NCBI RefSeq assembly: GCF_000756385.1
Contig: NZ_JNFC01000007.1
Location: 1 to 64,000, forward strand
Direction: 5' to 3'
From: Sphingopyxis sp. LC363
Lineage (GTDB): Bacteria > Pseudomonadota > Alphaproteobacteria > Sphingomonadales > Sphingomonadaceae
Length of the DNA: 64,000 nucleotides
The notes beneath the pieces are model-generated. The model ran no database searches. It saw only the letters and a list, made by a program, of their open reading frames with translations, and was not told the DNA's origin. Position numbers and translations under genes: made by a program. Positions 14,875-31,438 of the stretch are shown piece after piece; within the stretch, counting starts at the first letter, position 1, and each line of letters opens with the position of its first letter.

Positions 14875-17385
14875 ATGAATAATATCCGCCTGCCTATTTC
14901 TGCGCGCGCCGCGCTTCTCGCGGCCGGGGCTTCGCTCGCGCTGCCGGCGATGGCAGCGGCGCCGATCGGGCCCGCCGCGGCATCGGCGGTGGGCGAGCAG
15001 CCCGCCGAGGCCGCCCCTCCGGCGTCCGCCGACAATCAATCCGAAGAGGAGGAATATAGCGAGGACGAGATCATCGTCACGGCGCCGCGCCTCGCGGGGC
15101 AGCTTGCCACCGACATCAAGGCCGAGGCCGAGCTCGATGAGGCGGCGATCGCCAGCTATGGCGCCTCGTCGATCGAGGAACTGCTCGACGCACTCGAGCC
15201 GCAGACGCGCTCGGGCCGCGGGCGCGGCGGACGGCCCGTCATCCTCGTCAACGGGCGACGCATTTCGGGGTTCGGCGCGGTGCGCAACATCCCCCCCGAA
15301 GCAATCGCGAAGGTCGAGATTTTCCCCGAGGAAGTCGCACTCGAATATGGCTATGCCGCGACCGAGCGCGTGGTCAATTTCGTGCTCAAGCCCGATTTTC
15401 GCCAGATTTCGGTCGAGGCGGAAGCGGGCATCCCGACGCAGGGCGGGCAGTTCAAGAACGAACTCGAACCCGCCTTCATCGCGATCGGCGACAACGGCCG
15501 GCTCAATCTCAACGCGAGCTGGGAGCATCAGACGATGCTGCGCGAAAGCGAACGCGATCTTGTTTACGACGATCCCGTCCTTGCCGCGGGCGCGCCGGCG
15601 CGCAGTCTGGCCCCCGCGAGCGACGAATATGTCATCGACGGCACGCTGGTGCGCAACATCGACAAGGTGACCGAGGCGTCGGTCAGCCTTCGCTTCGACC
15701 AGACCGACAGCCTGTCGCTGCTCGGCCCGCGGAACGGCAACCCCGACGATCCCCGACGCCGCGACAGCCGTTCGCAGAACTGGACCAGTTCGGCGAGCGT
15801 CAACGGCATGCTCGGCGACTGGCGCTGGTCGGTAACGGGCAATTATGCCGATGCCGATCAACGCACCTTCACCGAGCAGGACAGCGGCGCGCGCGACCGG
15901 TTCGACAGCAGCCAGCAGAGCTTCGGCACCAACGCCAATATTTCGGGCAGCGTCGCCGACGGCTGGGCGGGCCCGATCCGCGCTTCGATCACCGGCGGCT
16001 ACAGCGGTCAGCGCTTCGACAGCCGGACCGAACGCGGCGTCGACATCACGACGACCGAACTCGCGCGCGACACGCCGAGCGTCTTCGGTTCGCTCACCGT
16101 GCCGTTGCTCGATCCCGAATATGATATCGGCAATATCGGCCGCCTGTCGCTGACCCTCAACGCCCAGGCCGAGCGGCCGAGCGACTTTTCGGCGCTGGCG
16201 AGCTGGGGCGCGACGCTGAACTGGGGCGTCACCGACAATCTGTCGTTGCTCGCCAGCTACGCGAGCGACGAAGCGGCGCCCAGCATGACCCAGCTCGGCG
16301 CGGCGCCGCTCGAAACCGAAGGCGTGACCTATTACGACTTTCGGACCGGCCAGACAGTGCTGATCACCACGATCACCGGCGGCAACCCGTTCCTGCTCGC
16401 CGAGCAGCGGCGCGACCTCAAGGTCGGGCTGAACTGGGAGCTGCCGATGGTCGAAGGGTTGCGCTTCTCGATCAACTACAACCGCAACCGAAGCAACGAC
16501 ACGGCGAATGGTTTCCCATTGCTGACTCCCGAGATCGAGGCGGCCTTTCCCGATCGCGTGATCCGCGACGACAACGGGACCCTGCTCGCGATCGACCAGC
16601 GTCCGGTCAATTTCGAGCGCGCGACCAACTCGCAGATTCGTTGGGGCTTCAATTTCGGCAAGAGCTTCGGCCAGAGCGAAGCGGGCGGCGGCCGCGGGCG
16701 CTTTGGCGGCCGTTCGGGTGCCGGCGGGCCGCCGCCTTCAAGCGACGCAGGCACGCCGCCGCCGCGCGAGGGCGGCGAGGCGGCATCGCCTCCCGCCGAA
16801 GGACAGCGCCCCCCGGCGGAAGCGGGCGAGCGTCGTCGCGGGGGTGGCGGCGGTTTTCGCGGTCGCGGCGGCGGGCGTGGCGGCATGTTCGGCGGACGGC
16901 AGCAGCAGGGCGGGCGCTGGCAGGTGTCGCTGTACCACACGGTCAAGCTGACCGACAAAATATTGATTGGCCCGGGCGTCCCCGAACTGGACCTGTTGAA
17001 CGGATCGGCGACGGGGAGCGGCGGCGGCACCAATCGCCATCTTGTCGAACTCGACGGCGGCCTTTTCTACAAGGGCTTCGGCACCCGGGTCAGCGCGAAA
17101 TATGACAGCGGCAGCAGCATTGTGGGCGGCGCCAACGGCGACCTCAAATTCCACGATCTCGCGACCTTCAACCTGCGTTTCTTCGCCGATTTCAACCAGA
17201 TGCCGAAGCTGACCGACGACCTGCCCTTCCTGAAAGGATCGCGTCTGCGCCTGTCGGTCAACAATCTGTTCGACGCGCAGCGCAAGGTGACCGACGCGAG
17301 CGGCGTCGTGCCGCTGAATTATCAGCCGGGCTATACCGACCCGCTCGGCCGCTATGTCGAGCTGGAGTGGCGCAAGGCGTTCTAA
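14875..17385 (+). CDS. TonB-dependent receptor with Gly/Arg/Pro-rich insertion
   Basis: An 836-residue outer-membrane receptor. After a signal peptide (about 1-24) and an acidic stretch comes a TonB-box/plug region (DEIIVTAPR, then RPVILVNGRRISGF and IPPEAIAKVEIFPEEVALEYG), followed by beta-barrel repeats. It is unusual in having a low-complexity segment at about 603-680, encoded at roughly 16681-16915, rich in GGRG, PPP and RRRGGGGG. The barrel resumes after it (WQVSLYHTVKLTDKILI). The substrate is unknown. It lies just upstream of the TPR-CHAT gene on the same strand. Confidence 0.88.
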   Translation: MNNIRLPISARAALLAAGASLALPAMAAAPIGPAAASAVGEQPAEAAPPASADNQSEEEEYSEDEIIVTAPRLAGQLATDIKAEAELDEAAIASYGASSIEELLDALEPQTRSGRGRGGRPVILVNGRRISGFGAVRNIPPEAIAKVEIFPEEVALEYGYAATERVVNFVLKPDFRQISVEAEAGIPTQGGQFKNELEPAFIAIGDNGRLNLNASWEHQTMLRESERDLVYDDPVLAAGAPARSLAPASDEYVIDGTLVRNIDKVTEASVSLRFDQTDSLSLLGPRNGNPDDPRRRDSRSQNWTSSASVNGMLGDWRWSVTGNYADADQRTFTEQDSGARDRFDSSQQSFGTNANISGSVADGWAGPIRASITGGYSGQRFDSRTERGVDITTTELARDTPSVFGSLTVPLLDPEYDIGNIGRLSLTLNAQAERPSDFSALASWGATLNWGVTDNLSLLASYASDEAAPSMTQLGAAPLETEGVTYYDFRTGQTVLITTITGGNPFLLAEQRRDLKVGLNWELPMVEGLRFSINYNRNRSNDTANGFPLLTPEIEAAFPDRVIRDDNGTLLAIDQRPVNFERATNSQIRWGFNFGKSFGQSEAGGGRGRFGGRSGAGGPPPSSDAGTPPPREGGEAASPPAEGQRPPAEAGERRRGGGGGFRGRGGGRGGMFGGRQQQGGRWQVSLYHTVKLTDKILIGPGVPELDLLNGSATGSGGGTNRHLVELDGGLFYKGFGTRVSAKYDSGSSIVGGANGDLKFHDLATFNLRFFADFNQMPKLTDDLPFLKGSRLRLSVNNLFDAQRKVTDASGVVPLNYQPGYTDPLGRYVELEWRKAF

Positions 17386-17590
17386 CCCCGGGGGTATAAG
17401 CGGGATGGCGGCTTCGGGGGCGCCGGAAGCCGCACGACCGCGTTCACGGCGTCCCATGGAATTACCGTCGGGAGCCGCTTCGCGGGACCTGTTCTCGACG
17501 GGGCCTGCTGAAGCACGAGGAACCAATACGGCACCGGGCTGTTTCAGCCCAACGAACCGCTTTCGATCGACGGTGCAATTGGGGAATTTC

Positions 17591-20500
17591 TTGCTTCGCG
17601 TCGTCCACTGCCTTTGCTGGTTGGCCTGCATCACGATGATGGCGCAGGCGGGGCCGCTCCGGGCGCGGACCGCGCAGACGGCACCGGCGGGCGACAGCGC
17701 GGTCCTGTCGCTGATCGAGGCCCGCAAATATCCCGAAGCCGAGACGATCCTGCGCGGCCGGCTGAGGGCGCATGAAGCGGCAGGGACGATGGCCACAGCA
17801 GCGGCGGCGGGCGATGGTGAAACGCTGGCCTTCCTGCTGACGATGACCAAGCGCGCCGAAGAGGCCGAACCGCTGATCCGTGCGGCGGTGCGGACGCGCG
17901 AGCGGCTCGGCGACGACCGGCTTACCGGCCGAAGCCTCAACCGCCTGGCGTCCGTCCTCCTCGAGCGCCGTCGCCATGTCGAAGCCGAAGCGGCGGCGCG
18001 GCGCGCGATCGACCTGCTCGCCGCGCCCGGCCCGGCCGACGACCGGCTGGTGGCAGCCTGGGGCAATCTGGGACGCATCCTCGAAGCTCGCGATCGGTTG
18101 CCCGACGCAATCGGCGCCTATGACCGGGGAATCGCGGCCGGCCGCCGAATGCCCGGCGAAGGCGACGAGGTGATCGCCGCACTGCAATCGCTGCGCGCCG
18201 ACGCCGAAGCGGCGCTGTCGGCCTATCGCGAGCGCACCACGGCCCAGCGCCGCAAGGTCGCGGCGGCTGCGGAAACGACGGCGCCGGACAGCACGGAAAC
18301 CGCCCGCGAACTCTATCTCCTCTCGCTCCTTCTGGCACGGCAGGGCGAGGTCGACGAAGCGACGAGAACCGCCGAAGAGGCCTATGCGATTCAGGCGCGG
18401 ACGCTCGGACGCGACCATGCCGATACGCGAGCGTCGCTCTACCAGCTTGCCACGATGCTCCGCCGCGAAGCCGACGCACGCGCGGCGACCGCCGCCCCGG
18501 ACGAACATGTCGCGGCGCTGCCGGCCGAGACCGAGGCGGATATCCGCCAGCTCATCGACCGCGGCATGTTCGTCCGGGCCGAGACCGTGGTCCGGGCGCG
18601 CATGAACGGTCGCGCGGAAGGCGCCCGCTCGGCCGCCGCGGCGACCGACAAGGAGCTGCTCGCCAACATCCTCTACCTTACCGGGCGCGCCGACACCGCC
18701 GAAAAGCTGATGCGCGATGCCCTCGCGATCCGCGAGCGGCTCGGCGAGCCCAAGGCGCATTCGGCCGCGCTGCGACGTCTGGCGCTCGTCCTTTCGGCGC
18801 GGGGCGAATATGACAGGGCCGAGGCCCATGCGCGGCGCGCGATCGAATTGGTCGAGCCGCTGGACAGTGAAACACGCTCGCTGTCGGCGGCGTGGGGCAC
18901 GCTCGGCGAAATCCTCGCCGGACAGCGCCGCCGCCCCGAAGCCTCGGCAGCGATGCAGAAGGCGATCGACCATGCGAAAGCGGCGCTGGGCGACGAGGAT
19001 CCCTTCGTCATCGAGGAATATAACGGCTTTGCGCTGAACCTCGAGGAAATGGGCGACATCGCGGGCGCCGAGGCGATCTATCGCCGCAACCTCGACCTCC
19101 TCGTGCGTACCAGGGGGCGTGGCAGTCTCGACACCGCCCGCACGCTCGCGCTCCTGTCGAGCAACCTCGACCGGCAGGACAAGGCGCTCGAGGCCGAGGT
19201 GCGGTTGCGCCAGGCGATCGCGATCCGCGAACGCCACCTTGGCACCGCCAACCCCGACACGCTCCGCTCGCTCGGCAACCTCGTCGGCCTGCTGACCAAG
19301 GAGGGCAAATATGACGAGGCGGGCGCGCTGCAGACGCGCGTCATCGCGCGGCGGTCGGTCTTGCCCGAACGCAATCACGAGGAGGGCATCGCCGACCTCG
19401 GGCGGATGGGCGCGATCCTCGCGAAAGAAGGCAGGCATGATGACGCGATCGCCTATCAGCGCCGCGCACTGGCGCTCGCGCTCGACACGCTCGACCCCGG
19501 CCATCCCTATATCGCGATCGCATCGACGGCGCTGGCGCGGTCGATCGCGCGGCAGGACCCCGCATCGGACGAATATGTCGACCTGATGCGCGAAGCGGTC
19601 GCGCGAGCGCGCGGCGAGCGGACGCGCGTGCTGTCGGCGGCCGACGTGTCGGGCGCGACTGCAGGCGAACGCGCGACGGCAGCGGCGCTGAGCGACAACG
19701 ACGGGTCCGACCGTTCGGGCGCGAGCGTTTTCGCACTGGCGCTCACCCTTTATGCCAATCACGCGACCGCAGTCCGCGGCGAGGAGGCGAAGCTTCGCGC
19801 CGAAGCCTTTCGCATCGCGCAGGATTCGACGTCGAGCGCCGCGACCCGTGCGCTCGCCGGAATCGTCGCGCGCGAAGCGCTTGGCGACACACCGCTGGCC
19901 CGGCTGGTGCGGCGCCAGCAGGATCTGGCGCAGGACATTCGCGACCTCAACCAGAGTCTCGGCAAGGCGATGATCGGCGCCGCCGATGCCGCCGCGATCG
20001 CAAGAAGCCGGATCGGCGTGCTCGGGCGCGAGCTCGGCGCGATCGAAGAAAGATTGCGCCGCGCCTATCCCGATTATGCGCGGCTCGCGGTTCCGCAGTC
20101 GTTGAGCGAGGAGGAAGTGCGCCGCCGCCTACGCCCCGGCGAAGCGCTGCTGCTCGTCACCGAGGGCGAGCTTTACGATTTCACCTTCGTCGTCACCGCC
20201 GAAGCGGCCGGCTGGAACGCCGTACCGCGGATGCAATCCTATCTGCGCGGCACGATCGAGGCGTTCCGCTGCGAGGTCGATCCGAAGACCTGCTCGGGCA
20301 TCTGGACGGCTTCGCCGCTATTCGATCGCCGCTATGCCTGGGACCTGTATCGCTTCCTCGTCCAGCCGCACGAAGCGCTGCTCAAGGATGTGAAGACGCT
20401 TTATGTGACGACGTCGGGGCCACTCGCCGACCTGCCCTTCGCGGCTTTCATCACCGCCGAACCCCAAGGCGAAGACACCGACGCGGCGCTCGCGGCGACC

Positions 20501-21349
20501 CCATGGCTCGCTGACCGGTTCGCGATCGTCAACCTGCCGTCGGTCGAATCGCTGCGGATCGGCCGGCAGCGGCCGGAGAAGCGCGGTGCGCTGCCGCTCA
20601 TCGGCTATGGCGCCCCGGTGCTGGCCGAAGCCGGGGGCAAGCGTGCGGCGACCGCCGGACTGTCGCCGCAGGCGGGCCCTGCCGGTCCCGCGCTCGCGGA
20701 TCCCGCACGGTTGCGCGCGCTTCCGTCGCTTCCCGGGACCGAGGTCGAACTGAACGCGATGGCACAGGCGCTCGGCGCCGACGCGACGGCGATCCATCTC
20801 GGCGCGGAGGCGACCGAGACGGCCGTCCGCACAAACGACCGGCTGCGCGATGCGCGTATCGTCGCCTTTGCCACGCATGGCGTCCTTCCCGGCGAAATCG
20901 AAGGCTTAGCCGAGCCGGGGCTGATCTTCACCCCGCCGGGGCGCGCGACTTACGCCGACGACGGTATTTTGACCGCGGCCGAAGCCGCGGGGCTGGACCT
21001 GTCGGCCGAGTGGGTGATCCTGTCGGCATGCAACACGGGCACGACCGAAGGCCCCGGCGGCGGCGACGCATTGTCCGGGCTGGCGCGTTCTTTCCTCCAT
21101 GCCGGCGCCGACGCGCTCCTCGCGAGCCGCTGGCGGGTCGGCGACAAGGTCACCGCCGCGCTTACCGTCGAAACGCTTGTAAACGCGCGTCGAAACCCGG
21201 CCGGCGGTAAAGCGGCGGCGCTCCAGTCCGCGATGCGGGCGATCCGCACCGGCAAACGCGACGACGGATCGGCGGTCGAAGGCTGGACCAGCGACTGGGC
21301 GCACCCCGCCGCCTGGGCGCCCTTCACGCTGATCGCGACCGACGACTGA
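17591..21349 (+). CDS. Large exported TPR-CHAT protein (putative caspase-like peptidase)
   Basis: About 1252 residues. A hydrophobic export-type N-terminus (VVHCLCWLACITMMAQAG) leads into a long array of tetratricopeptide repeats (about 40-780), a coiled section, and a C-terminal CHAT domain (about 830-1252). The caspase-like dyad is His1096 in FATHG and Cys1147 in SACNTG, with LPSLPGTEVEL and SRWRVGD typical of CHAT. I propose TTG 17591, with GGGGAA upstream, because it places the signal peptide at the N-terminus. In-frame ATGs at 17354, 17405 and 17456 are alternatives, but they add a long polar leader and 17354 overlaps the receptor gene. It is possibly co-transcribed with the upstream receptor gene. 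Confidence 0.85.
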   Translation: MLRVVHCLCWLACITMMAQAGPLRARTAQTAPAGDSAVLSLIEARKYPEAETILRGRLRAHEAAGTMATAAAAGDGETLAFLLTMTKRAEEAEPLIRAAVRTRERLGDDRLTGRSLNRLASVLLERRRHVEAEAAARRAIDLLAAPGPADDRLVAAWGNLGRILEARDRLPDAIGAYDRGIAAGRRMPGEGDEVIAALQSLRADAEAALSAYRERTTAQRRKVAAAAETTAPDSTETARELYLLSLLLARQGEVDEATRTAEEAYAIQARTLGRDHADTRASLYQLATMLRREADARAATAAPDEHVAALPAETEADIRQLIDRGMFVRAETVVRARMNGRAEGARSAAAATDKELLANILYLTGRADTAEKLMRDALAIRERLGEPKAHSAALRRLALVLSARGEYDRAEAHARRAIELVEPLDSETRSLSAAWGTLGEILAGQRRRPEASAAMQKAIDHAKAALGDEDPFVIEEYNGFALNLEEMGDIAGAEAIYRRNLDLLVRTRGRGSLDTARTLALLSSNLDRQDKALEAEVRLRQAIAIRERHLGTANPDTLRSLGNLVGLLTKEGKYDEAGALQTRVIARRSVLPERNHEEGIADLGRMGAILAKEGRHDDAIAYQRRALALALDTLDPGHPYIAIASTALARSIARQDPASDEYVDLMREAVARARGERTRVLSAADVSGATAGERATAAALSDNDGSDRSGASVFALALTLYANHATAVRGEEAKLRAEAFRIAQDSTSSAATRALAGIVAREALGDTPLARLVRRQQDLAQDIRDLNQSLGKAMIGAADAAAIARSRIGVLGRELGAIEERLRRAYPDYARLAVPQSLSEEEVRRRLRPGEALLLVTEGELYDFTFVVTAEAAGWNAVPRMQSYLRGTIEAFRCEVDPKTCSGIWTASPLFDRRYAWDLYRFLVQPHEALLKDVKTLYVTTSGPLADLPFAAFITAEPQGEDTDAALAATPWLADRFAIVNLPSVESLRIGRQRPEKRGALPLIGYGAPVLAEAGGKRAATAGLSPQAGPAGPALADPARLRALPSLPGTEVELNAMAQALGADATAIHLGAEATETAVRTNDRLRDARIVAFATHGVLPGEIEGLAEPGLIFTPPGRATYADDGILTAAEAAGLDLSAEWVILSACNTGTTEGPGGGDALSGLARSFLHAGADALLASRWRVGDKVTAALTVETLVNARRNPAGGKAAALQSAMRAIRTGKRDDGSAVEGWTSDWAHPAAWAPFTLIATDD

Positions 21350-23657: not shown

Positions 23658-23764
23658 TCGCGGGGCGCGGCGCAGGCGAGCCCGGGCAACGCCTGGCCAA
23701 ATAGAACCGCTCCGACGCCGATATTTCCAGGTTGCCTTCAGCACCGTTTCGGGAATCATGCGTC

Positions 23765-25435
23765 ATGGCAATGAGGCAACAGAGCTTACGCACAACCTCG
23801 ACGCGGCGCTGGATCGTGCGAATTCTTATCTCGCTCCTTCTGGCAGCTGCGTTGCTGTGGCTGACCTCCAAACCGCAAATCGAAGCCGATTCCCGCCCGG
23901 TCCTATCGGAAGGTGCCTCGGCAGATGCACGTGGCGCAGCGGCTTTCCTGGGCGCGGGTTTCGGTGGCATCTCGATGGAATCGCTCGACTCCAGTGCCAT
24001 TCCCTGGCGGCTTGCAGCCGCTGCGTTGGTGCTTGACGAACGCCGCCGGAATCCGTCTGCCGCCATCGACCGGGCAACGGTGCGCAGCATCTTGAAGCGC
24101 TTCGGGTTCCTCTATCCAGCAACGATCGCGAACCTTCCCGCGGACCTTCGCCCGCGCGGGGGTGAGATGCCGCTGGGCATCACGCACGGCGCCATCGCGC
24201 CGATCGGCGGCACCAGGGTGGAAGTCGCCAACCTTGGGTGCGCGGCCTGCCATGCCGGCGTGACCTATGATGAAACAGGCGGCCCCCGGCCCGACCGGGC
24301 GTGGCTGGGCACGCCCAACAGCTCGATCGACCTTGAGGCCTATACGCAGGCGATATTCGACGCGACGCGCCGACACATCGGGTCCGAAGAGTTGCTGACC
24401 ACCGCCGCAACGCTCTACCCCGAAATGGGATGGCGCGAGCGGCAGAGCCTGCGCTGGCTGGTCATCCCGCTCGCGAAGCGACGGCTTGCCGCACTGGAGG
24501 GTCAACCGCGACCTTTGCCCTTTCCCAACGGATCGCCGGGCAGCACCAATGGCGTAGCAGCGCTCAAACACGCGCTTGGTGCGCCGCTTGCCGAAGGCGG
24601 GCCGGGCGATGACGGAATTGTTTCGGTGCCCGAGCTAGGCCGCCGGGAGTGGCGCAGCGCGCTGCTCGCCGACGGGGCCTATGCGCTGCCCGGCGTAAAG
24701 CCGGGCGCGACCGTCGAGGCCGACCTGACCGCCGAACGACTGCGCGAGCTGGCCGCGATCACCAGTTTCTTCACGGTTCCGAGCATGGGGGTCCATCCCG
24801 ACCGGGCGCAGCAAGGAATGGGGGATGCCGAAGCCGTTTTCGCTTGGCTGCGAACCTATCGACCGCAGCCCTTTCCCGGGGCAATCGATCATGCGGCGGC
24901 ACGGCGCGGCGCGGCGGTTTACCGGGCGCAATGCGCCGCGTGTCACGGAGATTACGCCATGAACGAAAGCGCGGCACCGCAACTCGTGCGCTTCCCGAAC
25001 TGGATCGGCGATGTCGGAACCGACCCGCTGCGCGCGCGCCTGTTCGATGCCGAGCTCCGGAAGGCTGTCGGCAATACCGGATATCGCAAGCTGATCGCCG
25101 TGAAGGCGGGGCGGGGATATGCCGCGCCGCCGCTGGCCGGTCTCTGGTCCTCCGCACCCTATTTGCATAATGGCTCGGTCACGAGCCTTGGCGCGCTGCT
25201 CGACCCGACGCAGCGTCAGGCGCGTTTCCTCGTCGGAGGGCATGCGCTCGATTTCGAAAGCGTCGGACTCCGTCTGGGACCCGCCGGCGCATATCCCGAC
25301 GGTTACCGCCCCTTTTCGACACCGCAGTGGACCGACACCACGCAGCCCGGGCGCGGCAATGGCGGACACCTGTTCGGAGCCGGGCTGACGGCTGCCGACC
25401 GGCAAGCGCTCATCGAATTTCTGAAGCGGCTCTAG
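23765..25435 (+). CDS. Membrane-anchored diheme cytochrome c (RoxA/peroxidase-like family)
   Basis: About 556 residues with an N-terminal membrane helix (IVRILISLLLAAALLWL) and two c-type heme motifs, CAACH in GCAACHAGVT and CAACH in AQCAACHGDY. The C-terminal signature PPLAGLWSSAPYLHNGS with later GNGGHLFG is typical of the diheme family that includes bacterial peroxidase relatives and the rubber oxygenase RoxA. The substrate is unknown; it probably acts in the periplasm. ATG 23765 is preferred over the frame start at 23732. Its TAG overlaps the convergent nitroreductase-like gene stop in a shared CTAG. Confidence 0.8.
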   Translation: MAMRQQSLRTTSTRRWIVRILISLLLAAALLWLTSKPQIEADSRPVLSEGASADARGAAAFLGAGFGGISMESLDSSAIPWRLAAAALVLDERRRNPSAAIDRATVRSILKRFGFLYPATIANLPADLRPRGGEMPLGITHGAIAPIGGTRVEVANLGCAACHAGVTYDETGGPRPDRAWLGTPNSSIDLEAYTQAIFDATRRHIGSEELLTTAATLYPEMGWRERQSLRWLVIPLAKRRLAALEGQPRPLPFPNGSPGSTNGVAALKHALGAPLAEGGPGDDGIVSVPELGRREWRSALLADGAYALPGVKPGATVEADLTAERLRELAAITSFFTVPSMGVHPDRAQQGMGDAEAVFAWLRTYRPQPFPGAIDHAAARRGAAVYRAQCAACHGDYAMNESAAPQLVRFPNWIGDVGTDPLRARLFDAELRKAVGNTGYRKLIAVKAGRGYAAPPLAGLWSSAPYLHNGSVTSLGALLDPTQRQARFLVGGHALDFESVGLRLGPAGAYPDGYRPFSTPQWTDTTQPGRGNGGHLFGAGLTAADRQALIEFLKRL

Positions 25436-26409
25436 AACAGGACAGCGTCGATCGGCAGACGGGCCCGGGCAAAGCCGGGTCCCGAACGCCGGCCGACGCG
25501 AAAGGCGCTGACCAGCCGCTGTCCGGCGGCGATGCCATGGGTTGAAGCGACATGCGACGCCGCCCGCGGATCATCGGCCAGCGCGGCGAGCACCGCCGCA
25601 CCCATCCCTGCCCGCTCGATGCCGAGCCACAGGCGGAGAAAATGCCGGCCGCTTTCGAAAGGCGCTTCGACGACGGGACGGTGAAACAAGATGACCGCCG
25701 CCGCCGCCGCCACCTTGGCGCCCTCTGCCAGCAGCGCTGGTGCAACGCGCAGGCGATCGAGCGGACTGAAAAGCGGCCCCAGCACCAGATTCGCGCCGAT
25801 CGCCTCGACCGGCGACAATGCCATCGCTTCGGCATTCAACCCGTCGCGCGCCCAACAGGGATGACGCCGCCGCAGCCGCATCCAGCCAAGCAGCTCGCCG
25901 CGAAAGGCGCCGTCGCGCATGAAACCATAGCTGGCGGCGTCGAATTCCCGCCCGAGCAGGGCAAGCGCGTCGGGTGCCGTGACGATGGTCGCATCGGCGC
26001 CTGCGAACTGCTGGACCGCCGCCCGATCGGCCTCGGTCGGGACGAGAAAATTTCCGCGCCAGGATGCCCGTTTACCGAGCCATCCGGCCAACGGGTCGAC
26101 GTCAGCGCCGCGATCGAACCGGTATCGCGCGATGGCCCGCAGCCCGGCGCCAAGGTCCGGAAGGCCCCTCCGTTCCTCGACAACATGCCAACCCTCGCGC
26201 GAGGCTGCGATTCGCAACGCTTCAGCGGCGGCGCCCAGACTGATGGCGGCATCGTTGCCGGTCGGATCGCCGACCGCCAGCCGGCGCGACAGATCTTCGG
26301 CGAGCAACAGCGAATTGTCCTCGATCCGCCAACGCGCGGGTTGGACATTGTGGACACTCGGTGCCGTGATCGCGTCTTCGACCAGCCGTCGCAATATCGC
26401 TTTGGTCAT
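25432..26409 (-). CDS. Acg/MoeY-type nitroreductase-like protein
   Basis: A 325-residue protein. The N-terminus (EDAITAPSVHNVQPARWRI) matches the FMN-binding start of Acg-type nitroreductases, and the middle MRDGAFRGELLGWMR...HPCWARDGL and LGIERAGMGAAV segments are typical of that branch, known from mycobacterial Rv2032 (Acg) and the C-terminal half of Rv1355c (MoeY). Most such proteins bind flavin but lack a known substrate. It is the last gene of the five-gene operon, and its ATG overlaps the GNAT gene stop (ATGA). The open frame continues far upstream, but that part is a shadow of the GNAT gene. Confidence 0.75.
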   Translation of the reverse strand: MTKAILRRLVEDAITAPSVHNVQPARWRIEDNSLLLAEDLSRRLAVGDPTGNDAAISLGAAAEALRIAASREGWHVVEERRGLPDLGAGLRAIARYRFDRGADVDPLAGWLGKRASWRGNFLVPTEADRAAVQQFAGADATIVTAPDALALLGREFDAASYGFMRDGAFRGELLGWMRLRRRHPCWARDGLNAEAMALSPVEAIGANLVLGPLFSPLDRLRVAPALLAEGAKVAAAAAVILFHRPVVEAPFESGRHFLRLWLGIERAGMGAAVLAALADDPRAASHVASTHGIAAGQRLVSAFRVGRRSGPGFARARLPIDAVLF

Positions 26410-27500
26410 CCGAGCGTCTTTCGGAACAGGTGCAGCTGGTGAAGAGGTTCTGCGCCCAACTTCTCCATCTGGCGCAGGCTTGCAGCATTTTCGTCGGCGA
26501 TCCAGGTGATGCCCAGCTGCCTGTAATGAGCGGCGCGCAGCTGGCGGATCGTGCGCGCGAGCATCGCGCCCATCAAGCCGCGACCGTGCCGATCGCGCAC
26601 GATCGAATAGAAGATGATGACCGCGCGGCGGCGGCGGAAACGGAATCGCAGGAAATGCCATAGCGTGAGCGGCCCGATGCGCGAACGGGTCGCGCGCAGA
26701 AAGCCGTTGAGGTCGGGGATGCAGATGATCGTGCCCACCGGTCGGCCATCCTCCATCAGCACCGACGACAGGCGCGGGTCGAGAATTGCGCTCATTTCGC
26801 CCGCCTGGAACGCGAACTCTTCCTCCGTCAACGGCACGAACATCGGATTCTGCGCGAACCCGTCGTTGAGCACCGCCCGCGCATCCTCCATGCGCTCCGG
26901 GAAACTGCGCCGCTCGATCGGGGCAAAGCTGTAGGCCCCGCTTGCGACGGGCTCCTCCGACGGCGATGCGGCGCGTTCGAGGTCGAGCTCGAAAGTCGTC
27001 ATCGGAAAAAAGGGTTCGAACCCGTTCGCTATCAGCAGCCGGGGCAGATGCGGCGGCCCGACGACCATGTCGGTATATCCGCGCCGCGAGAAGCCGCCGG
27101 TCATCACCCCGCATTGTTGCATGGCCGTAAGATTGAAGTTGCCGACCAGTTCGGAAAGGCCGTGCCTTCGCGCAAAATCCTGCGCCGCGCCCAGCAGCGC
27201 GGCCGCGGCTTCGGCGTCGTCGGCGCAGTCGAAGAAGCCGAATTGCGCGCGTTTCCACCCATGTGCCGCATTCGACTGGCCATGCACATGCGCGACGATC
27301 CGCCCTATCGGACGCCCGTCGCGATGCGCCGTCCAGAATGCGAACGGATTTCCGGCAGTCCACAACGGGTTCTTCGCCGTTTCGAGCATGCGGAAAATGT
27401 CGCCCTTCATCGGCGAAACATAGCCAAGCGCGTCATCATAGGCGTTGAAGGGCGCGTCGAAAAAGGCCTGTGCATCGCCCGAACGAAGCTCGATCGTCAT
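26406..27500 (-). CDS. GNAT-like N-acetyltransferase
   Basis: A 364-residue cytosolic protein with two GNAT-like halves. The C-terminal half shows a recognisable acetyl-CoA loop (IFYSIVRDRHGRGLMGAMLARTI), preceded by the substrate-side strand GRPVGTIICIPDLNG and followed by ITWIADENAASLRQMEKLGAEP, a classical GNAT motif B. The N-terminal half has GRPIGRIVAHVHG, WKRAQFGFFDC and a GNFNLTAMQQCGVMTGGF segment seen in large GNATs of unknown substrate. Both ends overlap neighbouring genes by 4 bp. The substrate is unknown. Confidence 0.8.
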   Translation of the reverse strand: MTIELRSGDAQAFFDAPFNAYDDALGYVSPMKGDIFRMLETAKNPLWTAGNPFAFWTAHRDGRPIGRIVAHVHGQSNAAHGWKRAQFGFFDCADDAEAAAALLGAAQDFARRHGLSELVGNFNLTAMQQCGVMTGGFSRRGYTDMVVGPPHLPRLLIANGFEPFFPMTTFELDLERAASPSEEPVASGAYSFAPIERRSFPERMEDARAVLNDGFAQNPMFVPLTEEEFAFQAGEMSAILDPRLSSVLMEDGRPVGTIICIPDLNGFLRATRSRIGPLTLWHFLRFRFRRRRAVIIFYSIVRDRHGRGLMGAMLARTIRQLRAAHYRQLGITWIADENAASLRQMEKLGAEPLHQLHLFRKTLG

Positions 27501-28636
27501 GCCGCGCCCTCCAGCAACCTTGCCGCGAGTTCGAGTTCTTCGTCGAGCGCGGCTTCGGATAGGCCGCCGGCAGAAACGGCGAGAAAACGCGGCGGCCGTT
27601 GCGACAGGCGGATCAGGTGGCTTGCGGCATAATGGCCGAGCAGGTCGGCGGCGGCATCCGCGAGTGCGGGGTCGTCAGGCACGAGCCCGCCGTTGATCAG
27701 GCGATGTTCGGCAAGCTGTTCGATGACCGCTGGCGGATAGTCCGACAAGGCATCGCCTTCGACCAGCACGCCGCGATCGAGCAGTGGGTGTGCCGCAAGC
27801 ATCGCACTGCGGCGATGCTCGACCCCCACCAGCGTCGAAACGAGACCAGCTCGTGCATCATCGTCCAGGGCGAAACGCTCGATCAGCAGCAACAACGCCG
27901 CGCCCGCGGTCGCGCAGGCGACGATCGGTAGCATTTCGATCCCGAGGCCGGGCGGCGCCAACAGCGCCAGCGCGACAATGCCGCCCCCGCCGAGCGCGAG
28001 GAGCAGGTCACCGAACAGCTGCCGCGGTCGCCCCTCGGCCGCCACGAGCCGCGACGTCGCGAGGATCAGGATCAGCACCGCAAACGCACCGCCGCGAACC
28101 GAGAGGTGGGGAAACAGTCGCTGAAAATCGGTCAGGACGAGCGGCATTGCGAGCAGCAGCGCGATAACGAAAAGATCGGCGGCGCGCCGCTCCGACAACG
28201 AAAGCTCGCCGCGACCGCGCATCAGCATGACGATCACGGCGATCATCGCCAACATCTGGAAAGCGGCGAGCGCCGCGATCGCGGCGCCGCTCCACACCAG
28301 CCCGAAGGTGACCGCAAGAACCGAGAAGCCGATCGCTCCGACGAGCGCAGCCAGTTTGACGGCGCGTGGTGCGTGGCGACGAACGAGCTCTTCGGCGAGG
28401 CGGAGCATGGCGACAGGCAGCCACGCGGCTGCGATCATCACGAGCGAGGCGACCGGCGGCACCATCCACGCGGCGTATACCAGTCGCAGCAAGAGGAGCG
28501 CCCCGACCAGCCCGTACACCAGCCGCAGCCGCGCCGCGACGGGCGAACGCCGCGCAACCGCCGCGATCCCCCGCCGCGCGACAAGCACTGCAGCGAGCGC
28601 GATGAGCGTCAACAGGATCGCTGGCGACAGGGTCAC
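27497..28636 (-). CDS. Polytopic membrane protein of unknown function in the ThiF operon
   Basis: A 379-residue protein. About nine hydrophobic segments fill residues 1-255 (for example LSPAILLTLIALAAVLVA, GFSVLAVTFGLVWSGAAI and MLPIVACATAGAALLLLI). A soluble C-terminal domain of about 120 residues follows (DDDARAGLVSTLVGVEHRRS to the end), probably cytosolic. I recognise no transporter or enzyme family. Start GTG 28636 overlaps the ThiF stop (GTGA), and its own stop overlaps the GNAT start (ATGA). The tight coupling implies it works with the enzymes around it, perhaps exporting or sensing their product. Confidence 0.75.
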   Translation of the reverse strand: MTLSPAILLTLIALAAVLVARRGIAAVARRSPVAARLRLVYGLVGALLLLRLVYAAWMVPPVASLVMIAAAWLPVAMLRLAEELVRRHAPRAVKLAALVGAIGFSVLAVTFGLVWSGAAIAALAAFQMLAMIAVIVMLMRGRGELSLSERRAADLFVIALLLAMPLVLTDFQRLFPHLSVRGGAFAVLILILATSRLVAAEGRPRQLFGDLLLALGGGGIVALALLAPPGLGIEMLPIVACATAGAALLLLIERFALDDDARAGLVSTLVGVEHRRSAMLAAHPLLDRGVLVEGDALSDYPPAVIEQLAEHRLINGGLVPDDPALADAAADLLGHYAASHLIRLSQRPPRFLAVSAGGLSEAALDEELELAARLLEGAA

Positions 28637-29505
28637 GCCATCAGTTTTTTCATGAAGCGCCGCACCAGGGCGCGCTTGACCGCGGCGATCGGCGCCGGCA
28701 GCGGTCGCTCGACCTTTCCCGCATGGGTGTTGAAGAAATAGCCCCGATAATCGACCCCTCCCGGGCGGCCCAGGATGACGCGCACCGCCTCTTCGGCCAT
28801 CATCGTCCCGGCCATCGTGACCATCGTCGAGAAAGAAAAGCGCGAGCGTTTGCCCTGTGCGACTTCCGCTGCAACATCGAGGTCGACATATTTGTGACTG
28901 CTGCTGTGCGTCAGCACATATTCTATTTCGAGCATCAGGCATTCGACCGCCATTTCGCGGTCGATATCGGTCCAGGCGACGCCACGCGTCGGATAGCCGA
29001 GCCGGTCCTCGATCCGCGGATCGTCGGGCCGCACGACGGTGACCGACGGCAGTGGCGACGCATAGGCGTCGATCAGCGCCCGGCGATGTTCGCGCGCCTT
29101 GCGGTAAAGCTGTGCCCCCGCCGCGGCATCGTCGGTGCCATTGATCGCGACCGCCACCGACGGCAGTATCCGGTCGAGTTCATCGACCCACGTACCGTTC
29201 AGCACCTCTATATCGAGGCCGGGGTTGATTTCCAGCGCCAGATCGCGCGCCGCCTCGACTTTCGGGCGGCCGATGGTGTCGGCGCGGCTGAAAAGCTGGC
29301 GGTTGAGGTTCGACACCTCGAAGACATCGATATCCGCGATGATAAAGCTGCCGACTCCCGCGCGGACGAGTGCCATGAAAGCAGCGCCGCCCATGCCGCC
29401 GACACCGGGGATGAACACGCGCGCGTCGCGCAGCCTTTCCTGCTCGACCCGGGTCACGAAACCGCGATTTCGCGTGGTCATCTCGCCATAGTCAAAATCG
29501 CTCAT
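28633..29505 (-). CDS. ThiF/MoeB/E1-like adenylyltransferase
   Basis: A 290-residue Rossmann-fold E1-like protein. The ATP loop is GVGGMGG (34-40). Conserved E1 residues are visible as Asp58/Asp60 in ADIDVFEVSNLNRQ (Arg69), Lys82 in GRPKVEA and Asp125-126 in NGTDD. Such proteins adenylate a C-terminal carboxylate of a peptide or small protein. Two usual features are missing: the paired CxxC zinc site of MoeB/ThiF and an evident catalytic Cys; the only Cys is in VECLML. ThiF proteins of this type are linked to nitroreductases, fused in mycobacterial MoeY, and here the two are separate genes of one operon. Start ATG 29505 overlaps the upstream stop. Confidence 0.85.
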   Translation of the reverse strand: MSDFDYGEMTTRNRGFVTRVEQERLRDARVFIPGVGGMGGAAFMALVRAGVGSFIIADIDVFEVSNLNRQLFSRADTIGRPKVEAARDLALEINPGLDIEVLNGTWVDELDRILPSVAVAINGTDDAAAGAQLYRKAREHRRALIDAYASPLPSVTVVRPDDPRIEDRLGYPTRGVAWTDIDREMAVECLMLEIEYVLTHSSSHKYVDLDVAAEVAQGKRSRFSFSTMVTMAGTMMAEEAVRVILGRPGGVDYRGYFFNTHAGKVERPLPAPIAAVKRALVRRFMKKLMA

Positions 29506-30443
29506 CGGGCGGGCCTCAAACGTCTTGAATGCGTGCTCGCATCGAGCCATTGGATCAGCGGGGCGACGACGGCACCGGTGGCGAGCACCAGCGCTTGCAC
29601 GGCAAGCTGCGGCAAGGCGCTGCGCGGCACACTGCGCGACAGGAAGCGCTGTCCGGCGCCGAGATCGATGGCGCCGATCTGCAAAACATCGTCGCCACGG
29701 CCATAATCGAGCTCGCGCAGGCAATATTCGTTATAGCGTTCGGCCCGATGCTTCGCCGCGACATCGAAGCTCTTCTTCAGATTGTCCGAACCGCCGGTAT
29801 AGGCGTCGGTGATGATCTGCCGGTCGGGATCGAACCCGGCGTCGTCGCCGACACCGAAAGCGGCGCGGTGCCGTTTCATGATCTGATGCGCCAGATGGCG
29901 ATGTGCGAAGCTTTGCCGCGTTGCGTCCTGGGCGGGGAACACATTGCTGAAGGTTTCGGCGACCATGCCGACGACCGCCGGCACCTGCGTCACGCTGCTG
30001 ACCCACAGCGGTCGAAGTCCGCCGCGGAGGAACAGGGCAAAGCAGGTGAGGCCATAGAGTATCCACGACAGGCCGCCGCTACGTTCCGAAGGATCGACCA
30101 TGACGAGGCCGAGGTGCAGGACATGCTCGTCGCGCCCGGCGCGTTTGACCGCGAGCTGGGGCATCGCGTTGAAGGCGACCGGCGCTCCGTCGGCGCTGCG
30201 ACATACCAAGGTGATAACGCAGCGCGACCAGGCGTCGGTCCGGGGATCGAAAAGGCCGTAATCGAGATCCTGTCCCGCCAGGCATGCGCGCACGACGGTG
30301 CGGCATTGCGCGACCAGCCGGTCGAGCTCCGCCGGCGCCAGAAACTCGCCGGGTCGTTCATAAATATTGACGACATGCTCGGGCGATGCCCGGAACTGCA
30401 GTCTCAATTGCTTGTGCCGAAATGCGGCCAACAGAATATTCAT
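29502..30443 (-). CDS. Acyltransferase-like protein, first gene of the ThiF operon
   Basis: A 313-residue soluble protein. The middle (VVDPSER-like MVDPSERSGGLSWILYGLTC, then RPLWVSSVTQVPAVVGMVAETFSNVFP) resembles GNAT/N-acyltransferase folds in which a P-x-x-R-G-G loop binds acyl-CoA, but I cannot name the family. The rest is rich in Arg and aromatic residues (DNLKKSFDVAAKHRAERYNEYCLRELDYGRGDD). Start ATG 30443 has GAAGGGG upstream. The stop overlaps the ThiF ATG by 4 bp. The operon promoter should lie in 30444-30583. An acyl-chain transfer step to feed the ThiF/nitroreductase pair is an inference only. Confidence 0.6.
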   Translation of the reverse strand: MNILLAAFRHKQLRLQFRASPEHVVNIYERPGEFLAPAELDRLVAQCRTVVRACLAGQDLDYGLFDPRTDAWSRCVITLVCRSADGAPVAFNAMPQLAVKRAGRDEHVLHLGLVMVDPSERSGGLSWILYGLTCFALFLRGGLRPLWVSSVTQVPAVVGMVAETFSNVFPAQDATRQSFAHRHLAHQIMKRHRAAFGVGDDAGFDPDRQIITDAYTGGSDNLKKSFDVAAKHRAERYNEYCLRELDYGRGDDVLQIGAIDLGAGQRFLSRSVPRSALPQLAVQALVLATGAVVAPLIQWLDASTHSRRLRPAR

Positions 30444-30583: not shown

Positions 30584-31162
30584 TCAGCCAGTCTCGAATA
30601 TACCGCAAGCGATACGGTCGCCGCTATTGCCCGACGGATCGGTCTTCTGATCGTCGACGGACGCGTGGATCACCATGGCCGAGCCATCGCTGTCGAGCAG
30701 ACCTTCGAAGGTCGCGCCTTGCAACTCGTACGAAAGCGTGCCGCGCCCGTCTTCGCCGACGACCAGATTGGGCATGTCGCCGGCATGTTGCCCTGCCGGG
30801 TCTTCCAGTCCATGCTTCGCACCGGTAGGGTTCCAATGACCTCCGGCGCTCTCGAATTTGGGAGCGTCGCATTTACCCGTCATATGCACATGGGCCCCGT
30901 GCCGACCCGTCGGCAACCCTTCGACCTGAAGCGCCAACTTGACGCGCCCGTCGACCATTGTTGCGGTCGCCTGTCCGGCAGGCTCGCCCCCGGCGGTCCG
31001 CAGGATCGCCGCGGCACTTTCTACCGTCGTTCCATCGCCGCCGGCCCCGGCCGCTCCTTCTTTCGATACCGTCGGGTCGGGCGCCTGCGTCGAAGTTTCA
31101 GGGGCGTCGCAACCGGCCAGCACGGCGGAAATCGCGACGGTCATCCAGTAAATCTTGTTCAT
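30584..31162 (-). CDS. sodC: Cu,Zn superoxide dismutase, lipoprotein form
   Basis: A 192-residue envelope enzyme that dismutates superoxide. The signal peptide ends in lipobox LAGC (about 15-18), followed by an Ala/Gly-rich linker. Metal ligands are visible in GAHVHMTG (Cu His pair), GGHWNPTGAKHG, QHAGDMPN (Zn His and Asp) and VIHAS (Cu His). The conserved disulfide is Cys in TGKCDAP with Cys in IACGIF. ATG 31162 has GGAGG upstream. It lies upstream of the ThiF operon on the same strand, with 140 bp between, and diverges from the permease operon. Confidence 0.93.
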   Translation of the reverse strand: MNKIYWMTVAISAVLAGCDAPETSTQAPDPTVSKEGAAGAGGDGTTVESAAAILRTAGGEPAGQATATMVDGRVKLALQVEGLPTGRHGAHVHMTGKCDAPKFESAGGHWNPTGAKHGLEDPAGQHAGDMPNLVVGEDGRGTLSYELQGATFEGLLDSDGSAMVIHASVDDQKTDPSGNSGDRIACGIFETG

Positions 31163-31438
31163 TAAAGGCCTCCGTTGCCATGTCACATATTAAGCAAACC
31201 GCCCGGCGGCTCCAACGTTCCGCAATGGCCCGTCAACCGGCCAGCGCATTGAACCTGCGGGCGCGTCGCGGGGCCAACGAGAAACGCCGAACTTGACGGG
31301 CGGGCTCCGCTCGCGGAAGGATCGCACGCTCGGGACGGAACAAACAGATCGGGGCAAAAAAGGGTCGATGAGAGGTTCATTCCACCGCGGAATCGCGGCG
31401 TCAGAGGGCCAGGGGGCCGCCGGGCCGGGTGCCGGCGC

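Follow-up and report, generated by a model that had tools for sequence, protein, structure and literature searches.

Organization of the locus

The window analysed here, 64,000 nucleotides of the Sphingopyxis sp. LC363 contig NZ_JNFC01000007.1, raises the question of what is made by a compact operon that combines a ThiF/E1-like protein, a nitroreductase-superfamily enzyme, two putative acyltransferases and a nine-helix membrane protein. Our answer, which we rate at slightly better than an even chance, is that the module directs the biosynthesis of an acylated, oxidised amino-acid lipid. Five genes, g1 to g5, lie on the minus strand at 25432-30443 and are joined by four 4-bp overlaps (ATGA, GTGA, ATGA and ATGA, from g1/g2 to g4/g5). 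A five-gene operon with 4-bp start/stop overlaps had been claimed for this DNA in the original prediction, and its coordinates and four junctions were confirmed. A convergent gene, absent from that account, ends within the end of g5 (4-bp overlap, 25432-25435). The features are as follows.

g1, 30443..29502, minus strand: 313 aa; first gene of the operon; GNAT-fold acyltransferase by model, candidate amino-acid N-acyltransferase
g2, 29505..28633, minus strand: 290 aa; ThiF/E1-like adenylating enzyme (by family)
g3, 28636..27497, minus strand: 379 aa; membrane protein with nine helices and a C-terminal alpha/beta domain (about 276-375)
g4, 27500..26406, minus strand: 364 aa; GNAT of the YghO/bacterial ceramide synthase family, probable second acyltransferase
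g5, 26409..25432, minus strand: 325 aa; Acg/Rv3131-like flavin enzyme of the nitroreductase superfamily, candidate desaturase
Dihaem cytochrome c gene, 23732..25435, plus strand: RoxA-like, with a hydrophobic N-terminal stretch; convergent, probable sixth gene

Conservation of the module across related loci

We retained 80 related loci out of 218 matching stretches, and locus counts refer to those 80. The order g1-g2-g3-g4-g5 was found at 39/80 loci; three lack only g4, 36 consist of g1-g3 alone, and two are cut by contig ends. Many Alphaproteobacteria carry module loci, which also occur in Lysobacter and, as one five-gene locus (L076), in an Acidobacteriota MAG. The 4-bp overlaps were retained, for the four junctions in turn, in 34/42, 36/42, 33/39 and 29/39 cases, counts that lean upward because the start picker preferred overlapping starts. 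Given its recurrence in 39 of the 80 loci, the five-gene arrangement is more than chance. The original prediction had staked a shared pathway on conservation of the gene set and its order, and both held in the loci examined. Its choice of the five genes as the unit was right as to order; however, the set is often extended by the convergent cytochrome gene and often reduced.

Because 36 loci retain nothing of the module but g1-g3, this pair is its stable core, with g3 after g1 in 78/78 loci that extend far enough; Bradyrhizobium provides natural examples of the two-gene form. The genes g2 and g5 are both present in 42 loci (in L059 as fragments) and both absent from 36, the other two being contig-cut; one contig-cut locus accounts for the sole mismatch between the g2 set and the g5 set. 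Such joint presence and absence fits two enzymes working on one substrate, as in the OxzB and TrzS fusions and in TyzBC. In the g1 tree, two-gene rows are scattered among five-gene rows, with five label changes (L047 still carries the label 'cut'); this pattern is what several independent losses of the tailoring genes would leave, and gains may also have occurred. Stages of reduction can be seen within Mesorhizobium, where L046 has all five genes, L049 lacks g4, L059 retains g2, g4 and g5 as fragments, and L040 has g1-g3 only.

Among recurrent neighbours, a gene similar to PRK06814, an acyl-ACP ligase/acyltransferase, borders 10 loci, and in four of these it lies immediately upstream in the same orientation; the PRK06814 model was run on the L046 gene only, the other loci being assigned by tblastn to that gene. 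Other neighbours were considered as module members and rejected. The family of a superoxide dismutase-like gene upstream of the Sphingopyxis operon (30584-31186) is absent among the 40 largest recurrent-neighbour families, and PspA, TetR and aldehyde-dehydrogenase neighbours came mostly from Bradyrhizobium loci and were taken as synteny.

Predicted functions of the encoded proteins

No credible Pfam or NCBIfam match was obtained for g1. Its predicted structure has a GNAT-like fold, with an acyl-homoserine-lactone (AHL) synthase among the fold matches at rank 28, and FeeM is absent among the best 50 matches listed. Compared with one FeeM-type synthase, that of an OxzB-like split cluster (L136), g1 displayed no sequence homology (hhalign probability 0.2). 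At the level of fold, the model assigns g1 to the GNAT acyltransferases and makes it a candidate amino-acid N-acyltransferase. The AF2 model of g3 contains nine helices (mean pLDDT 91.8), in keeping with the number originally claimed, and loop charges suggest an N-out, C-in topology. Pfam and NCBIfam provided no family assignment for g3, and 48 of its relatives gave scattered matches of one to three members each, the best being twin_helix (E 9.9e-5), 7TMR-DISM (E 0.0012) and FraD (E 0.0035). A fold search returned 7TM bundles, none below E 0.001, and gave no evidence for a new fold.

The ThiF gene and the Acg-type redox enzyme named in the original prediction were both borne out. Pfam places g2 in the ThiF family (PF00899, E 2.1e-35), and a cyclase role is a candidate function; its top NCBIfam model, PRK08223, scores 125.6 bits, below the cut-off of 266. 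Residue D125 of g2 aligns with MoeB D130 and is invariant in 42 rows (the window and 41 relatives). Identity to an OxzB-like ThiF is 35% over 170 aa. In a ThiF tree containing 13 generic rows, several on very long branches and some perhaps wrong ORFs, all of which were kept, the branch that sets the g2 rows apart is recovered in just 30% of bootstrap trees. For g5, the best-scoring model is that of Rv3131/Acg (NF047509, E 1.1e-34, 120 bits; cut-off 199), ahead of Rv1355c (42 bits) and PRK14851 (23 bits), and residues 4-80 match Acg of PDB 2ymv (E 1.7e-6). The score against PF00881 is 22.0 bits, just below the cut-off of 23.5, and the match to the oxidase of the OxzB-like split cluster is marginal (E 6e-4). 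The g5 rows form their own clade in the oxidase tree (100/99), which joins the FDO-B references weakly (84/76) where long branches meet. On these similarities g5 is a candidate desaturase.

By homology, g4 is a member of the YghO/CC_1154 bacterial ceramide synthase family and probably a second acyltransferase. It matches the GNAT model PF00583 (E 7e-8) and is 26% identical to YghO over 99% of its length (E 5e-15); PMC9386255 gives YghO and CC_1154 the same gene name, aca. A paralog in the sphingolipid region of the same genome (G000:C7:79507-80553) has 25% identity to g4 (E 7e-32, single comparison), and its surroundings, out to about 9 kb, include a serine palmitoyltransferase gene and an LptF/LptG pair. 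The pair originally described as one GNAT and one acyltransferase-like protein therefore stands, with g4 a GNAT by PF00583 and g1 GNAT-like by model, and is amended in that the two are of different kinds.

The convergent gene encodes a protein with two CxxCH haem sites (170 and 401) that matches PF21419 (58.8 bits, above the cut-off of 26.7) and RoxA (PDB 4b2n, E 2.8e-11). Among NCBIfam models it scores best with NF040606, a di-haem cytochrome c peroxidase subfamily (123.9 bits, under the cut-off of 150), and its scores against the RoxA, RoxB and RoxC equivalogs (48, 63.6 and 74 bits) lie below their cut-offs of 1000, 900 and 900; by sequence it could equally be a peroxidase. The cytochrome gene adjoins 24/39 five-gene loci by tblastn (E 1e-8; ORF clustering gave 20) and 0/41 of the remaining loci, and it is likely the sixth gene of the module. 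Loci L019 and L020, from Sphingomonas spermidinifaciens and Sphingomonas sp. Leaf407, combine all five genes with the cytochrome gene.

Proposed pathway

The analysis itself shows the order and co-occurrence of the genes, the predicted folds and motifs, the shared presence or absence of g2 and g5, and the constancy of g1-g3; we infer the chemical steps, their substrate and order, and the role of g3 as follows. At the inner membrane face, g1 would N-acylate an amino acid or similar amine, and g3 would work with it, either anchoring g1 or moving its product. With ATP, g2 would adenylate the free carboxyl, leading to oxazolone ring closure or to capture by another group, and g5, as an FMN-type enzyme, would desaturate the molecule on which g2 acts. 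A second long acyl chain would be added by g4, and the RoxA-like dihaem protein, where a lineage has retained it, would oxidise the product outside the cytoplasm.

The acylated amino-acid lipid reading draws on the gene order at 39/80 loci and at three more without g4 only, on the GNAT-fold model of g1 with its AHL synthase match, on the N-acyltransferase family of g4, and on the PRK06814-like gene beside 10 loci. It also draws on a published strain that has neither ThiF nor nitroreductase in its candidate clusters and which, according to the accessible part of the report, makes saturated N-acyl products only (PMC12479983). Counting against it, g1 has no homology to the FeeM-type acyltransferase of L136 and its GNAT match is at fold level; g5 scores nearer Acg/Rv3131 than the ThiF-fused oxidases, while published oxazolone systems use an FDO-A oxidase (PMC10404671, accessible text); the ThiF tree places g2 with little support relative to OxzB-like ThiFs; and 15 of the 39 full loci are without the RoxA-like gene, whose product may just as well be a peroxidase.

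Alternative readings

Membership of g4 in the ceramide synthase family, the phospholipid-type acyl-ACP ligase/acyltransferase gene near some loci and the constant placement of g3 after g1 would also suit a two-chain membrane aminolipid, ornithine-lipid or ceramide-like, in which ThiF activates the carboxyl for an amide or ester and no oxazolone ring forms. We consider this unlikely: the module contains no serine palmitoyltransferase gene (spt) and g4 lacks linkage to sphingolipid genes, the genome's own spt being near the g4 paralog and not beside g4, and the pairing of ThiF with a nitroreductase-type oxidase is published, in the portions of the papers available, for oxazolone or dehydro-amino-acid products (PMC12479983, PMC10404671, PMC12856293). 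The likeness of the g1 fold to AHL synthases, together with the 7TM-like bundle and cytoplasmic domain of g3, could instead point to an acyl-amino-acid signal that g3 receives or senses and that the remaining genes modify, a reading that we regard as decidedly improbable.

It is very improbable that the operon is an E1-type protein- or peptide-modifying or defence system in which ThiF acts on a ubiquitin-like or precursor protein. In favour of such a system are the general E1 homology of g2, its PADLOC matches (the best 25 of 32 families are all E1-E2, best E 2.3e-12) and its match to the anti-phage 6A-MBL cap2_3 NCBIfam model (40 bits, cut-off 320). However, PADLOC at E 1 returned nothing for g1, g3, g4 or g5, and we rejected a ubiquitin-like or anti-phage system on finding E1-E2 matches to g2 alone and no E2-like or system-specific partner in the operon. 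Moreover, CxxC was found in 0/42 g2 rows, and the only NCBIfam models spanning most of g2 (PRK08223, PRK14851 and PRK14852) all match an OxzB-like ThiF more strongly. We also compared 656 small ORFs (20-120 codons) from the 600 bases upstream of g1, on both strands, at the 80 loci. None was common to distant loci, matches being restricted to Bradyrhizobium or to near neighbours in the g1 tree; outside Bradyrhizobium (41 loci) there were six matches in five such pairs (L010-L011, L018-L026, L035-L058, L035-L075 and L055-L087), and the upstream stretch of three of these loci (L035, L058 and L075) contains the acyl-ACP ligase gene. A conserved peptide precursor near g1 was therefore rejected, in agreement with the originally claimed absence of one.

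Returning to the acylated amino-acid lipid, its boldest form is that six genes together build a kind of amino-acid lipid not described before, dehydrogenated and carrying two acyl chains. In this form an unrecognised GNAT-fold amino-acid acyltransferase would have a new nine-helix membrane protein as its obligate partner, ThiF and the flavin oxidase would act as a couple, the second acyltransferase would be of the ceramide-synthase type, and a RoxA-like dihaem oxygenase or peroxidase would carry out the last oxidation outside the cytoplasm, which would add the cell's own lipid to the substrates of that cytochrome family. We consider this form unlikely. More generally, a conserved pathway of five to six genes would predict a widespread though patchy lipid family, unseen to date, in many Alphaproteobacteria, and would supply functions for the RoxA-like cytochrome and for an orphan branch of Acg-like flavin enzymes. 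The natural loss series (five, four and two genes) is suited to inferring step order by metabolite comparison.

Relation to known systems

By analogy, and as far as the accessible reports describe it, the core logic of the module is known from OxzAB, TyzABC and TrzAS acyl-oxazolone synthesis. OxzAB of Pseudoalteromonas rubra reportedly consists of two genes, an acyltransferase and a fused ThiF-oxidase, for one N-acyl amino acid substrate. Published oxazolones decompose in acid and in alcohols. The original prediction saw no settled function for the ThiF-nitroreductase pair, known to it as the mycobacterial fusion MoeY, which we take to be Rv1355c. That view is outdated: Rv1355c is TrzS, a cyclase-desaturase producing N-acyl tryptazolones (PMC12856293), N-acyl tyrazolones are produced by TyzABC (PMC10404671), and OxzAB is cited in both papers. 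The predicted small metabolite, acylated, carboxyl-activated and oxidised, agrees with these related systems, and the product itself we infer. A literature search, with most subscription papers outside its reach, found the module named in none of the listed titles or abstract openings, and g3, g4 and the cytochrome are absent from the accessible descriptions of Oxz/Tyz/Trz-type clusters, which have two or three core genes.

As in our module, the acyltransferase, the ThiF homolog and the nitroreductase-superfamily oxidase of TyzABC are each encoded by a gene of their own, and TyzA was likewise an unannotated protein, in its case fold-related to FeeM and an AHL synthase. It differs in that the oxidase TyzC belongs to FDO-A, tyzA is on the other strand, and the described cluster includes neither a nine-helix protein nor another acyltransferase nor a cytochrome and is flanked by the mmpL9 transporter gene (PMC10404671, accessible text). 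TrzAS also directs an acyltransferase, ThiF and flavin oxidase to one N-acyl amino acid, but with two genes and a ThiF-oxidase fusion (PMC12856293, in part); g1 and g5 score with other families where compared. The NasY/ThiF/nitroreductase clusters for N-acyl dehydrotyrosines share operon-like overlaps, and the relative without both enzymes gives saturated products; their extra genes, in the part available, are methyltransferases (PMC12479983), and the FeeM-type synthase without detectable homology to g1 is that of L136, which is not from that paper. The convergent gene shares PF21419 and two CxxCH motifs with the RoxA/RoxB/RoxC dioxygenases and di-haem peroxidases, but scores below their cut-offs and has a lipid-like operon context. 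Compared with the ceramide synthase CC_1154/YghO, as described in the accessible portions of PMC9386255, PMC11087976 and PMC11324152, g4 is a full-length distant relative that shares its operon with ThiF and an oxidase, is not linked to spt, and is separate from the paralog in its own genome's sphingolipid region. Overall, the module looks related to the known oxazolone pathways, yet distinct from them.

The operon and its probable, convergent sixth gene

The operon is a genuine unit, its conservation reaches far outside the host, and it extends further than first reported. The original prediction of five minus-strand genes was borne out, with ATGA, GTGA, ATGA and ATGA at the successive junctions; it missed a RoxA-like gene, the probable sixth member, that lies directly downstream of g5 in convergent orientation, the final 4 bases overlapping the end of g5. 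The GC content of the operon is unremarkable (65.8%, against 65.4% for the window).

30443-29502, minus: g1, GNAT-fold acyltransferase candidate, 313 aa
29505-28633, minus: g2, ThiF/E1-like protein, 290 aa
28636-27497, minus: g3, nine-helix membrane protein, 379 aa
27500-26406, minus: g4, YghO/bacterial ceramide synthase-family acyltransferase, 364 aa
26409-25432, minus: g5, Acg/Rv3131-like flavin enzyme of the nitroreductase superfamily, 325 aa
23732-25435, plus: RoxA-like dihaem cytochrome c, 567 aa

By eye, a Cu/Zn superoxide dismutase-like ORF (30584-31186, minus) lies 140 bp upstream of g1 on the same strand; its family is absent from the recurrent neighbour families listed for the relatives' loci. 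A large ORF at 17354-21349 (plus), also judged by eye, appears to carry tetratricopeptide repeats and a CHAT-type C-terminus.

Conservation, distribution and history

A g1 alignment was scanned against named bacterial and archaeal genomes, giving 218 matching stretches, and the gene content of the best 80 loci was scored by tblastn with the five proteins. The neighbourhood check proposed with the original prediction came out in its favour: g1-g2-g3-g4-g5 recur in the same order and orientation in 39 of these 80 loci, including L059, with fragmentary g2, g4 and g5, and L017, whose g5 match covers about half of the protein. Three loci (L049, L073, L074) hold g1-g2-g3-g5 and 35 hold g1-g3 by tblastn; in L047 the g3 following g1 was missed by tblastn and recognised by eye, and two loci (L026, L032) are cut by contig ends. 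Within this best-80 set, g3 follows g1 in all 78 judgeable loci, and g2 and g5 are both present in 42 and both absent in 36. Four-base overlaps, which the start picker favoured, were found at g1-g2 (34/42), g2-g3 (36/42), g3-g4 (33/39), g4-g5 (29/39), g1-g3 (31/35) and g3-g5 (1/3).

Of the 39 five-gene loci, 24 have the RoxA-like gene downstream in convergent orientation; none of the remaining 41 does, some of them with little downstream sequence. The gene overlaps g5 by 4 bases in 15 of the 24 and by 14 bases in five, with other spacing in three; at the last (L076) the ORF picker chose another frame. RoxA-like proteins are uncommon in the class, with matches in 21 of 289 genomes, all distant except the host's own. 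Ten of the 80 loci, from several rhizobial genera (L030, L035, L040, L046, L049, L058, L059, L065, L069, L075), adjoin a PRK06814-like acyl-ACP ligase/phospholipid acyltransferase gene (an MFS-acyltransferase-AMP-ligase fusion), assigned with the PRK06814 model in L046 and by tblastn to the L046 protein in the other nine. It never shares a locus with the RoxA-like gene.

Distribution is patchy: with the host counted each time, 2 of the 149 genomes from its family have g3, and 3 of the 296 from its order have g1. Among the best 80, five-gene loci occur in Sphingomonas, Erythrobacteraceae, Rhizobium, Ensifer, Bosea, Mesorhizobium, Bradyrhizobium, Devosia and Lysobacter, and in MAGs of Hyphomonadaceae, Caulobacterales and Thermoanaerobaculia (one MAG in the last case). 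The three loci of Rhodobacteraceae type are without g4 or are reduced further. Three Rhizobium sequences nest inside a mostly Sphingomonadales clade of the g1 tree, and in Rhizobium sp. WL3 the module is plasmid-borne (g1 and g4 by similarity, the other genes and a convergent c-type cytochrome by annotation and order), both of which point to horizontal transfer.

In the same tree two-gene and five-gene rows are intermixed, and the label changes five times (L047 labelled 'cut' there). Gains of the tailoring genes are possible on the tree alone; read together with the reduction stages found side by side in Mesorhizobium (L046, L049, L059, L040), it suggests that these genes were repeatedly lost and g1-g3 retained. 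The g5 rows form one clade (support 100/99). Relative to OxzB-like and generic ThiFs g2 is weakly placed: 30% of bootstrap trees separate its rows from the others, in a set that includes long-branch rows.

Proposed pathway and comparison with oxazolone clusters

We propose an acyl-amino-acid mechanism because g2 and g5 are kept or missing as a pair and g1 persists, a pattern that fits published oxazolone logic (Oxz/Tyz/Trz). In this scheme g1, working with g3, would form an N-acyl amino acid that g2 and g5 would activate and desaturate; g4 would attach a second chain, and oxidation of the product outside the cytoplasm would fall to the RoxA-like protein. The product may instead be an aminolipid without an oxazolone ring. 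It is also possible that g1-g3 form a signal-receptor pair. Among 48 relatives of g3, a single one has a match to a 7TM signalling domain (E 0.0012). The host probably makes sphingolipids, using a different cluster some 52 kb away from the operon, in a stretch that holds an LptF/LptG pair and serine palmitoyltransferase. The same stretch carries a ceramide-synthase-family paralog of g4 (79507-80553 of the host contig, outside the window).

Published work shows that acyl-oxazolones are made by an N-acyltransferase acting on an amino acid together with a ThiF cyclase and a flavin oxidase, as in TyzABC (PMC10404671) and TrzAS (PMC12856293), and that only saturated N-acyl products come from a strain with neither ThiF nor nitroreductase in its candidate clusters (PMC12479983). 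The oxazolone and dehydro-acyl-amino-acid cluster descriptions consulted do not name g3, g4 or the RoxA-like cytochrome. In the OxzB-like locus L136 (G382:C9), genes for an exosortase-type acyltransferase, a ThiF and a nitroreductase follow one another as a split cluster of the oxazolone type; L137-L139 hold further OxzB-like ThiF genes from other Proteobacteria. Homology of g1 to the FeeM-type synthase of L136 (TIGR03694/PF21926), the single synthase compared, was not detectable, and g5 matches the L136 oxidase marginally (E 6e-4). The g5 protein scores higher with Acg/Rv3131 than with models of ThiF-fused oxidases, whereas the published pathways use the FDO-A subgroup of flavin oxidases (PMC10404671). 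By analogy, the working principle of the module is known in outline, and the module is a candidate member of the oxazolone family.
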